64,000 bases of DNA, taken from IMG/VR virus record IMGVR_UViG_3300020470_000868, positions 1 through 64,000 of that record. The stretch is one strand, 5' to 3'. This document shows, piece by piece, positions 18,014 through 20,805 of this stretch. Both the position numbers and the translations under genes were made by a program. The DNA comes from a virus. The notes under the pieces are model-generated. The model was not told the origin of the DNA. It searched no databases and saw only the letters and a list, made by a program, of their open reading frames with translations. How positions within the stretch are numbered: position 1 is the stretch's first letter; each line of letters starts with the position of its first letter.

Positions 18014-18361
18014 TTAGAAAGTGTACTTTGTACCTAACTTAACACCGTATGCGTTATCAGCAGCATCTGCTGTCTGTAGTGAAAACTCTCCATACACTCC
18101 AACTGCTTCGGTTACGTCAACAGAACCACCAAGGTATCCAATGAAGTCTGTTGAAGACTCACCACCGTCAGGTGCAGTTGTGATAGGACCACCAGAAACA
18201 TACCAGTTGTCTCCTTCATATCCGACTTGTAATTCTGTTGTTGTGCCTGTGTAGTTACTACCTGTTAGAGATGAGTTTACTTCTACGTTGACATAAGGAC
18301 CTGCTAGTACAGGTGCTGAGAGTGCAGAGACAGATGCTACTGCTAATAGTGATTTAATCAT
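18014..18361 (-). CDS. Small exported, outer-membrane-like beta protein
   Basis: 115 residues. A classical signal peptide (KSLLAVASVSALSAPVLAGP) is followed by alternating beta strands (YVNVEVNSSLTG, TELQVGYEGDNWYVSGGP, VDVTEAVGVYGEFSLQT). The protein ends in KLGTKYTF, with the terminal Phe typical of outer-membrane barrels. It is far too short for a full porin, so it may be an 8-strand mini-barrel or a surface-exposed exclusion factor; this is inference. It has its own consensus promoter, a structured leader and a terminator, so it is an independent unit probably expressed early. Confidence 0.78.
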   Translation of the reverse strand: MIKSLLAVASVSALSAPVLAGPYVNVEVNSSLTGSNYTGTTTELQVGYEGDNWYVSGGPITTAPDGGESSTDFIGYLGGSVDVTEAVGVYGEFSLQTADAADNAYGVKLGTKYTF

Positions 18362-18384
18362 TTTTGTTTTTAATTTCTCGCAAG

Positions 18385-18470
18385 GAAAACCCCCGCGGAT
18401 GTTAGACTACCTCGACATAGGTGTCTTTTGAATCTACGCAGGGGCACGATCTTTCGATCCCTTTGTATAA
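18385..18470 (-). ncRNA. Structured 5' leader RNA candidate
   Basis: Between the sigma70-like promoter and the ATG at 18361 lies a leader of about 110 bases with nested complementarity on the minus strand. GATC-GAAA-GATC (18448-18459) forms a GNRA-capped hairpin. CCCCTGCG (18437-18444) pairs with CGCGGGGG (18390-18397) with one G-U. Inside it AGACACCT (18419-18426) pairs with AGGT-A-GTCT (18404-18412) around a 6-base loop with one bulge. TTTTCC follows the outer stem. The outer stem contains a G-U pair only valid on the minus-strand RNA, supporting strand. Could be a riboswitch, an attenuator or a stability element. Confidence 0.6.
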
Positions 18471-18476
18471 TTATAT

Positions 18477-18505
18477 AGTATATCTTAATACACTAACATT
18501 GTCAA
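18477..18505 (-). promoter_or_regulatory. Consensus sigma70-type promoter
   Basis: TTGACA (18505-18500), a 17-base spacer and TATACT (18482-18477) match the host-type consensus almost perfectly. Transcription would begin near 18470 and read through the structured leader into the outer-membrane-like gene. Cyanophage early genes use host sigma70-like promoters, so early expression is expected. Confidence 0.85.
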
Positions 18506-19131: not shown

Positions 19132-19641
19132 ATGAAGAAACTCGCTTTCGTTATTGTTATGGGAATATTGGGTGCACCTCTATCAGCGAGGGCAGATTTA
19201 ACGCATAAAATTCAATCTAGTATCCAGTTAAATGTGAATGCAGCAGCGACTCAGGTAAGTCGTACTCCAAACGTTTACAGTGTATCAGGTAATAACGTTA
19301 CAACAACTGGTACAGATTCTAATGGTGCATCATACAACACCATAGGTGCTATGACAATCACCGCATCTACAGGTGTCGGAGCAATACCTTCTCTAGGTGC
19401 AGTTCAGGCAACAGCAGGGGAAAGTTTCAGCTTTACACAATCTTGGAATCAAGGTGATGCCATATCAACAACGTTGACCACAGGTGCAGTATCAGCGTTC
19501 GGTAATCAGACATCCACAGCAGCAGGTACAAAAGATAGTTTAGCAGGAACTGTTGATTCATCTGGTACGATTTCACTAACAGCAGGTGGAGCAGGTACAG
19601 GTGCTGTAGGACAATTCACAACTGAATTAACCATCCAATAA
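19132..19641 (+). CDS. Exported Ser/Thr/Gly-rich protein
   Basis: 169 residues. A signal peptide is clear (KKLAFVIVMGILGAPLSARA, cut before DLTHK). The mature part is low in charge and rich in T, S, A, G and N (VYSVSGNNVTTTGTDSNGAS; TVDSSGTISLTAGGAGTG), like beta-solenoid or curlin-type surface proteins. First of three genes on the plus strand. No family recognised. It could be exported by the infected cell or be a virion protein. Confidence 0.75.
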   Translation: MKKLAFVIVMGILGAPLSARADLTHKIQSSIQLNVNAAATQVSRTPNVYSVSGNNVTTTGTDSNGASYNTIGAMTITASTGVGAIPSLGAVQATAGESFSFTQSWNQGDAISTTLTTGAVSAFGNQTSTAAGTKDSLAGTVDSSGTISLTAGGAGTGAVGQFTTELTIQ

Positions 19642-19654
19642 GTAACTATATAAT

Positions 19655-20098
19655 ATGAAACGTGTATGGTACATATGTGGCATTGCAACGTTGACTATGG
19701 GCGTAAACCCAGTCATAGCAGTGCCTGTGGTGCCAAATTTTTCTCAGGGTAGTATGACTTCCCACACGGAAACGACTTCCACCGTGACGGAGACCATAAA
19801 TTCTATGGATTATGCGACAGGGTGGCAATATTCGGTCAGTGGTACAAACATATCACAAGATGGAACAACCATATCACCCGCTATAGGGAATGGTTCATCT
19901 AATACTATTAATGGAGTGACTTCGCAATGGCAAGACTTAGACCACGCAAACAAACCAAACTACACGATAACAACTCCAGGAGCAGCGTTCCAGTTCACGG
20001 AGACGTATCGTGCCCCAGGTCTAATAAATCATACAGTAATACAAAGAGAAACAACCGTAACTTCGGTCACAGATACGCAAAGTATATTTCAACAATAA
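19655..20098 (+). CDS. Exported low-complexity protein
   Basis: 147 residues. A signal peptide is likely (VWYICGIATLTMGVNPVIAV), followed by T/S/N-rich beta sequence (TETTSTVTETINSMDYATGW; SVSGTNISQDGTTISPAIGN). YRAPGLINHTVIQRETTVTS near the end has no known match. It lies 13 bases after the first plus-strand gene and shares its composition, so the two may form one surface structure. Its 3' end overlaps the next frame by up to 172 bases. Confidence 0.7.
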   Translation: MKRVWYICGIATLTMGVNPVIAVPVVPNFSQGSMTSHTETTSTVTETINSMDYATGWQYSVSGTNISQDGTTISPAIGNGSSNTINGVTSQWQDLDHANKPNYTITTPGAAFQFTETYRAPGLINHTVIQRETTVTSVTDTQSIFQQ

Positions 20099-20805
20099 TA
20101 GCAACAGTTCTCACTGCTAACGCTCTACCTATGCGTGCAGAGACAGTTGGTGGTGTGTCAGCAACAGCATCGCCAATAGCAAACAGTTCTGGAAGTGTCA
20201 CAAATCAAGCTATACAGGTTTTGCAGGGTCCGTATATAACTAACACTTATGGAAATGGCATACAATGTCAAGGTCCAACGTTAAACTTCACACCGTATGT
20301 TACAGGGAGTACATCTCTACAACGTCCCTACGAAGATATATGGTTTGATCAAGTGTATGATATGCGTGACTTGACTGGTACTACAGATGCAAATGGAAAT
20401 CCCACAGGAGATGGTGCACCAGATAATCCAGGGGTGGTGTTATATGAAGTTCCAGTAAGAACAGGTCAGAAAGATAATCATTCTATATCAATAGGTTTTA
20501 GTGCAACGTGGTCTAAACCATTAGACAAGACACTACAAGACCAGTGTAAGGAAGCAGTAGCAACTCAAATAGCATATTCACAACAACTCACTGCTAATAA
20601 AAGATTAGACTTTGAGATCGCGAGATTAAAAAATTGTGGTGAACTGATGAAGGCAGGAATAATGTTCCATAAAGACTCACCATACTATGCTGTATGTGCC
20701 GATGTGGTTCTAGTAAACCCACCTGGAGTTCTTCCAAACCACGCTCATACAATACCTAGTACAGATGCTTCATTATTAAAAGAAGTATCTATTGGTAATA
20801 ATTAA
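19927..20805 (+). CDS. Exported protein, start uncertain (third plus-strand gene)
   Basis: The open frame gives 292 residues from ATG 19927, but the first 50 or so are basic, low-information sequence that overlaps the previous gene. A signal-peptide-like segment (KYISTIIATVLTANALPMRA, followed by ETVGG) begins near 20080. Between 19927 and 20131 there is no ATG, GTG or TTG in frame, so either the long overlap is used (GGAG lies about 11 bases before 19927) or a rare codon such as ATT at 20086 starts translation. The mature part has several cysteines (GNGIQCQGP, LQDQCKEAV, LKNCGEL, YAVCADVV). Its stop meets that of the minus-strand gene. Confidence 0.7.
   Translation: MARLRPRKQTKLHDNNSRSSVPVHGDVSCPRSNKSYSNTKRNNRNFGHRYAKYISTIIATVLTANALPMRAETVGGVSATASPIANSSGSVTNQAIQVLQGPYITNTYGNGIQCQGPTLNFTPYVTGSTSLQRPYEDIWFDQVYDMRDLTGTTDANGNPTGDGAPDNPGVVLYEVPVRTGQKDNHSISIGFSATWSKPLDKTLQDQCKEAVATQIAYSQQLTANKRLDFEIARLKNCGELMKAGIMFHKDSPYYAVCADVVLVNPPGVLPNHAHTIPSTDASLLKEVSIGNN

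Follow-up and report, generated by a model that had tools for sequence, protein, structure and literature searches.

A covarying two-hairpin RNA leader precedes the Phage_OMP gene of T4-like cyanophages and carries a possible attenuator in the Prochlorococcus-phage type

Does the DNA between a promoter and a small exported-protein gene of a cyanophage specify a structured RNA, and if so, what might that RNA control? The question arises in a 64,000-nucleotide stretch (the window) that forms part of a 112-kb IMG/VR record of a T4-like cyanophage. A minus-strand TTGACA-17-TATACT promoter with 11 of 12 matches to consensus (18505–18477), as near to perfect as a preliminary description of the locus had judged it, is separated there from the start codon of the Phage_OMP gene (OMP gene) by a leader of about 105 nt (Table 1). 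The gene product matches PF24653, "Cyanophage outer membrane protein like beta barrel" (E 6e-39), and PHROG 417 (E 6.5e-38); its relatives are annotated as DUF680 and T4-GC 241, and in the literature the gene appears as DUF680, often under the name PhCOG173. Published work ties the names DUF680 and PhCOG173 to phosphate limitation, and either of two OMP paralogues may be meant. The second paralogue (MKAIALAALA..GPYVESKHEFKG) lacks the leader; it lies beside pstS in P-SSM2 and is found also in loci L155, L163, L175, L180 and others. On the plus strand of the window, three tandem open reading frames of 169, 147 and 292 aa (19132–20805) run divergently from the hsp20 and OMP genes, and the first two begin with signal-peptide-like stretches.

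Table 1. Position of the promoter, leader elements and OMP gene in the window, in order of transcription
Feature	Position	Strand	Basis or remark
-35 box TTGACA	18500..18505	minus	Seen in sequence
-10 box TATACT	18477..18482	minus	17-bp spacer to -35
Strand 1 CAAAGGG	18459..18465	minus	Possible hairpin P1, with GG(G) pairing to CC(C) in strand 2
GAUC-GAAA-GAUC hairpin	18448..18459	minus	Specific to the GGGAUCG class
Strand 2 CCCCUGCG	18437..18444	minus	5′ strand of outer stem P2; Prochlorococcus-phage type only
Hairpin H1 AGACACCU..AGGUAGUCU	18404..18426	minus	Bulged A; apical loop AUGUCG
GUCG in H1 loop	18413..18416	minus	Near-invariant, at least 90% of 115 sequences
CAUC linker joining H1 to H2	18398..18401	minus	Invariant columns
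Strand 3 CGCGGGGG	18390..18397	minus	Pairs with strand 2 (P2) or strand 4 (H2), never both
U-tract	18386..18389	minus	Directly 3′ of the P2 3′ strand; inside the H2 loop when H2 forms
Strand 4 UCCUUGCG	18379..18386	minus	3′ strand of universal hairpin H2; AG follows
A-rich, nearly G-free spacer	18362..18376	minus	Adjoins start codon; no Shine-Dalgarno-like sequence
Phage_OMP gene	18014..18361	minus	115 aa, signal peptide, small beta-barrel

Relatives of the leader were collected by BLASTN, which recovered leader and gene together in P-SSM4, P-SSM3, P-SSM2, P-TIM68, P-HM1/2, P-RSM6 and other phages, by a pattern scan of IMG/VR for the leader that returned at least 120 loci, and by protein searches with five different OMP proteins, which are unconditioned on leader sequence and added both more distant Synechococcus-phage leaders and independently found leaders of the Prochlorococcus type. 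The resulting set of about 317 distinct cyanomyophage leaders comprises 181 of a Prochlorococcus-phage type, which share a 5′ part reading GG..CGAA..AUCG..CC(C)UGYG, and 136 of a Synechococcus-phage type, which do not have it. In relatives a TAAATA-type sequence resembling T4-like late promoters often overlaps or adjoins the -10 box: among the 181 Prochlorococcus-type leaders a sigma70-like promoter is present in 138, a TAAATA-type sequence in 156 and both in 116, a pairing of motifs that suggests both early and late transcription. Early-type and late-type sequences often co-occur upstream of the leader at Prochlorococcus-type and Synechococcus-type loci alike.

The leader is specific to one gene. 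Leader and gene occur as a unit in quite different neighborhoods, after psbD, talC, a 2OG oxygenase, glycosyltransferases, tRNA clusters or hsp20, and the leader therefore travels with the gene. An OMP gene follows, at a near-fixed distance to its start, all 290 copies found by DNA pattern that have enough downstream sequence (111 of 111, 115 of 115 and 64 of 64 in the three sets, with one frameshifted gene in the second); 13 copies of the first set originally listed as "other" proved to precede an OMP gene read from an in-frame upstream ATG. Searched with R1, a covariance model of the leader core, 22 of 26 full phage records yield a single strong copy, always at the OMP gene; only two much weaker extra matches appear (E 0.01–0.04), and across 956 kb of viral loci every strong match is a known copy, with none elsewhere at E<0.05. 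The OMP gene is present without the leader in the podoviruses S-RIP1 and NATL2A-133 and in P-TIM40, and ACG-2014f carries a different OMP paralogue. An exact Prochlorococcus-type pattern scan of genome contigs gave a sole match, to a cyanophage contig mis-binned in a "Euryarchaeota" metagenome-assembled genome; this contig, PAZU01000056.1, is a cyanophage fragment with the leader, a Phage_OMP gene and an apparent glutaredoxin gene. Synechococcus-type leaders are fused to Prochlorococcus-type signal peptides in loci L342, L219 and L457, and such mixed-type loci suggest recombination around the leader and signal-peptide region.

Both leader types share a universal core in the order H1, whose loop is usually GUCG, then CAUC, H2 and AG, with its end about 20 nt short of the start codon. 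We aligned 115 diverse leader cores by sequence alone with MAFFT (alignment A1), and RNAalifold analysis of A1 predicts exactly two hairpins, H1 and H2. The H1 stem varies freely, with both-side changes at all five modelled pairs, and a few leaders have ACAA or AAAA in place of the GUCG loop. Among the 115 sequences, the H2 closing pair is C-G in 67, U-A in 48 and broken in none, the third pair is C-G in 68 or U-A in 35, and the fourth is G-C in 57, A-U in 46 and U-A in 2. Both sides have changed in 340 cells, a count that none of 500 shuffles reached (mean 140), and most of this signal disappears when the pairing partner is slid by 1–3 columns. On the OMP protein tree, minimum switch counts are 24, 31 and 16 for the three H2 pairs that vary most, though recombination between leader and gene may affect these counts. 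Cores were admitted to the alignment if they had CATC, an AG following the helix and four or more of five H2 pairs. This selection overstates how often H2 is paired and how invariant CAUC and AG are; it does not produce the many different pair types, and the compensatory changes are less affected.

Strand asymmetry points to RNA. Of the 115 H2 helices, 113 include a G-U pair, a pairing that the opposite strand would not have, and an antisense or DNA element was rejected on this ground. The predicted sense-strand fold of the window leader is better than that of dinucleotide shuffles (z -3.3; 0–1 of 200 shuffles as good), with a weaker result for the antisense strand (z -1.5). R1 matches the window at 18430–18375 with 42.3 bits (E 2.4e-8), the window leader being among its 115 model sequences. 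The comparative evidence shows that a sense-strand, gene-specific structured RNA leader with an H1-CAUC-H2 core is real, and its conserved fold, compensatory changes, sense-strand signal and position in the 5′ untranslated region of one gene class are, at the level of sequence, those of a cis-regulatory structured RNA. The H1–H2 core may be of host origin.

This architecture revises the earlier picture of a GNRA hairpin followed by an 8-bp outer stem enclosing a bulged 8-bp hairpin, then TTTTCC and the start codon. Its central proposal, an ordered cis-acting leader before an exported barrel gene, is borne out by the covariation and by the PF24653 assignment, and the survey of related phages that it called for turned up abundant compensatory changes, the contrary of the outcome named as refuting. 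The bulged inner hairpin (18426–18404) is H1. The outer stem, here P2, is likewise present in the window as 8 bp between CCCCUGCG (18444–18437) and CGCGGGGG (18397–18390), including the one G-U pair noted on the minus-strand RNA; it had been over-weighted, as the strongest evolutionary support falls on H1 and H2. Ordered helices exist as described, but the universal hairpin H2 had been missed: 22 more bases (UUGCGAG... and an A-rich tract) separate TTTTCC from the start codon. Some of these bases are as well conserved as the remainder of the leader and pair with the outer stem's 3′ strand to give H2, in the window CGCGGGG (18397–18391) with UCCUUGCG (18386–18379). The GNRA hairpin is present in the window (18459–18448) but is not a family feature; the tetraloop is limited to a minority, most relatives read GGACUCGAAA..AUCG, and we rejected it as a conserved element because these relatives keep just the CGA/UCG stem with a loop of 4–6 nt.

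In the Prochlorococcus type, the CC(C)UGYG segment pairs with the 5′ strand of H2 to form P2, and because the two helices share this strand they are mutually exclusive. A T-run of at least four follows the shared strand directly in 168 of 181 Prochlorococcus-type leaders versus 3 of 136 of the Synechococcus type, and a GC-rich stem plus U-tract between promoter and gene is found in the Prochlorococcus-phage type only, an arrangement that suggests an intrinsic-terminator-like element. A terminator scanner did not report P2, since it allows loops of 3–8 nt only. Because the first collection pattern fixes part of P2, we tallied this helix on the 102 Prochlorococcus-type leaders found by protein search only, where 96% of cells are paired and covariation is weak: 42 of 2,000 whole-strand shuffles pair equally well, and true double changes (CCUACG/CGUAGG) come mainly from one lineage, plus single cases. 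Some P2 helices contain an A-C mismatch, and the U-tract is missing in about 7%. Further upstream, P1 would join GG with CC plus CGA with UCG, all of them bases invariant among relatives, which makes invariance its evidence and leaves no covariation available. The alternative helices are unequally documented, by strong covariation for H2, by conservation with little covariation for P2 and by invariant bases for P1.

The types differ also in their initiation regions. A Shine-Dalgarno-like sequence lies in the last 18 nt of 0 of 181 Prochlorococcus-type leaders versus 108 of 136 Synechococcus-type leaders; at neighboring genes the counts are 25 of 59 in Prochlorococcus-type phages and 40 of 80 in Synechococcus-type phages. 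Where the Synechococcus type has such a sequence it sits downstream of H2 and outside it, and an RNA thermometer or other sequestration of the Shine-Dalgarno sequence was rejected on these counts. Synechococcus-type loci, among them L134, L137, L141, L306 and L250, have an extra hairpin, located 95–150 nt before the OMP start, whose loop CUCAAYUACUC is conserved and whose stem closing pair varies among C-G, U-A and G-C; it sometimes lies within a longer AACAGA..UCUGUU stem, the 3′ side of which overlaps the -35 box.

We propose that the leader is an uncatalogued cis-regulatory RNA for Phage_OMP in T4-like cyanophages that acts as a two-state attenuator in the Prochlorococcus-phage type, a combined reading that we hold with about even confidence. 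Attenuation, one of three functions floated in the preliminary description, is a live idea because the outer stem and U-tract are terminator-like and exclude H2; P2 shows little covariation, and its regulated switching with H2, along with any ligand, is something we infer. The other two functions are so far unsupported: for a riboswitch no ligand is known and, where riboswitches usually serve several genes of one pathway, only one gene family was found with this RNA, and a phage small RNA sits poorly with a motif that is always directly ahead of the OMP gene. The P2 and H2 energies behind the proposal are predictions only. In a predicted nascent RNA ending before strand 4, P2 has a mean probability of 0.92 and exceeds 0.5 in 172 of 184 leaders, and the predicted full leader is mixed, with means of 0.62 for P2 and 0.36 for H2. 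The window leader is predicted to be P2-locked (0.985 versus 0.014 for H2), and H2 is predicted to be favored in P-SSM4 (0.72 versus 0.28 for P2) and strongly so in P-SSM2 (0.97).

In the proposed mechanism, the nascent Prochlorococcus-type RNA would first fold P2 around H1, and P2 with its immediately following U-tract could end transcription as an intrinsic terminator. Once an elongation complex had got past this point, strand 3 would be freed from strand 2 and re-pair with strand 4 to form H2, leaving open an A-rich initiation region from which OMP could be translated. Strand 4 is transcribed after the U-tract, so H2 cannot itself prevent termination, and an earlier event is therefore needed: P1, a bound factor or polymerase speed. 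By occupying strand 2 with strand 1, P1 would stand in the way of P2, and the balance might be shifted by some signal, for example a metabolite, the speed of the polymerase or a protein bound to the GUCG loop. In Synechococcus types, which do not have P2 and the U-tract and usually have a Shine-Dalgarno sequence, H1–H2 probably affects mRNA stability or initiation. A more specific version of the attenuator makes the leader a phage RNA switch in which strand pairings 1:2 and 3:4 exclude 2:3, a host-state signal read through the GUCG hairpin sets co-transcriptional termination versus read-through of the OMP gene in Prochlorococcus phages, and Synechococcus-phage relatives lost or never gained the terminator half; we offer this version tentatively and regard it as rather doubtful.

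A leader that never switches is also possible, if on the unlikely side. In Escherichia coli, the mRNA of the outer-membrane protein OmpA carries tandem hairpins in its 5′ untranslated region. The OMP leader resembles the ompA region in this layout, and by analogy its stacked 5′ hairpins could be a constitutive stabilizer or initiation enhancer that blocks ribonuclease E and keeps the initiation region open. The universal presence of H1 and H2 but not P2, the hairpins' position near the predicted 5′ end, the spacer after H2 in the Prochlorococcus type (64% A, 1% G) and the high, steady expression that an outer-membrane protein may need in an infected cell would all fit. Such a role leaves unexplained why strand 3 is complementary to two different strands, and the near-invariant GUCG, CAUC and AG exceed the needs of a stabilizing hairpin; conserved loop and linker sequences of this kind also set the OMP leader apart from ompA.

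We consider it unlikely that H1–H2 is the operator for an RNA-binding protein of phage or host origin, either a repressor like T4 RegA or gp43 or a host protein, that reads mainly the GUCG loop. Protein operators typically show what is seen here, a loop held nearly constant while its stem varies freely, and the extra upstream hairpin of Synechococcus types with its own conserved loop would suit this reading, but neither H1 nor H2 contains a Shine-Dalgarno sequence and some leaders have ACAA or AAAA loops. The T4 gp43 translational operator hairpin has the loop AAUAACUC. Only the extra Synechococcus-type hairpin, outside the window, resembles it, in a by-eye likeness of loops (AAUUACUC versus AAUAACUC).

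A separate phage small RNA of about 80 nt, ending at a P2 terminator with OMP expressed by read-through, would account for the terminator-like P2 and U-tract; it is very improbable given that the motif always directly precedes the same gene at a near-fixed distance to the start, that Synechococcus-phage types without P2 and the U-tract yet retain H1–H2, and that H2 reaches beyond the putative RNA end. A DNA-level element (a promoter cassette, protein-bound palindrome or shuffling module of the promoter-early stem-loop type) or chance folding adjoining a strong promoter deserves scarcely any credence against compensatory changes with sense-strand G-U pairs, one copy per genome and a fold that clearly outdoes shuffled sequences for the sense strand alone. 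A leader-peptide attenuator or upstream open reading frame was rejected as well: the AUG in the H1 loop is not conserved, AAGUCG, ACGUCG and UUGUCG loops being common, and its frame to the gene varies.

Comparison with described RNAs places the leader apart from each. Terminator-type attenuators, including the trp leader and terminator riboswitches, use alternative strand pairing. The OMP leader similarly has a promoter-proximal GC stem and U-tract sharing a strand with another helix; unlike trp-type attenuators it has no leader peptide or known ligand, and unlike terminator attenuators its alternative helix H2 lies downstream of the U-tract and could form only after read-through. Rfam 15 gives no match at gathering thresholds in the whole window, none at E≤10 on the leader and none in seven homologous loci, in agreement with the earlier statement that no known cyanophage RNA motif matches. 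The glnA (glutamine) riboswitch RF01739 and PhotoRC-II RF01717 are also RNA leaders carried by cyanophages, but they belong to different genes and the OMP leader has no Rfam match. The manA (RF01745) and wcaG (RF01761) motifs are likewise structured candidate cis-regulatory leaders of T4-like cyanophages with no ligand assigned (Weinberg 2010, PMC2864571); neither covariance model matches the OMP leader, and they precede several metabolic genes whereas the OMP leader precedes only Phage_OMP. Going by their citation in PMC4503421 (Arbiol 2010; Comeau 2014), the promoter-early stem-loops (PeSLs) of T4-type phages similarly join a promoter to a stem-loop, and as so described they differ from the OMP leader, which is single copy per genome and tied to one gene; a PeSL cassette was rejected on the single strong copy found in 22 of 26 records. 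The papers we found hold no account of the OMP leader, with many subscription papers outside the search, and the novelty of the RNA family is claimed relative to Rfam 15 and a partly searchable literature only. A shape kept through many matched mutations and absent from the searched RNA catalogs is probably a real and undescribed control element.

What the leader might be for is suggested by its gene. Loss-of-function mutations in the OMP gene of S-TIM4 (ORF224) swept populations passaged on Synechococcus WH8102 in a laboratory-evolution study, and the S-TIM4 protein was classed as non-structural (PMC6224464); the proteome of S-SZBM1 places a DUF680 protein in virions (PMC9146016). Since S-TIM4 populations lost OMP function on WH8102, OMP expression seems to carry a host-dependent cost, one that a leader reserved for this gene could keep in check. 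The phages of Prochlorococcus and Synechococcus, which are the ocean's most numerous photosynthetic bacteria, rank among the most abundant marine viruses, and few regulatory RNAs have been described for them. The OMP leader RNA is present in most cyanomyophage genomes tested, shows dozens of compensatory changes and belongs to a single exported gene; it offers an experimental way into the control of a membrane protein by these phages, and a new covariance model with which to annotate genomes.
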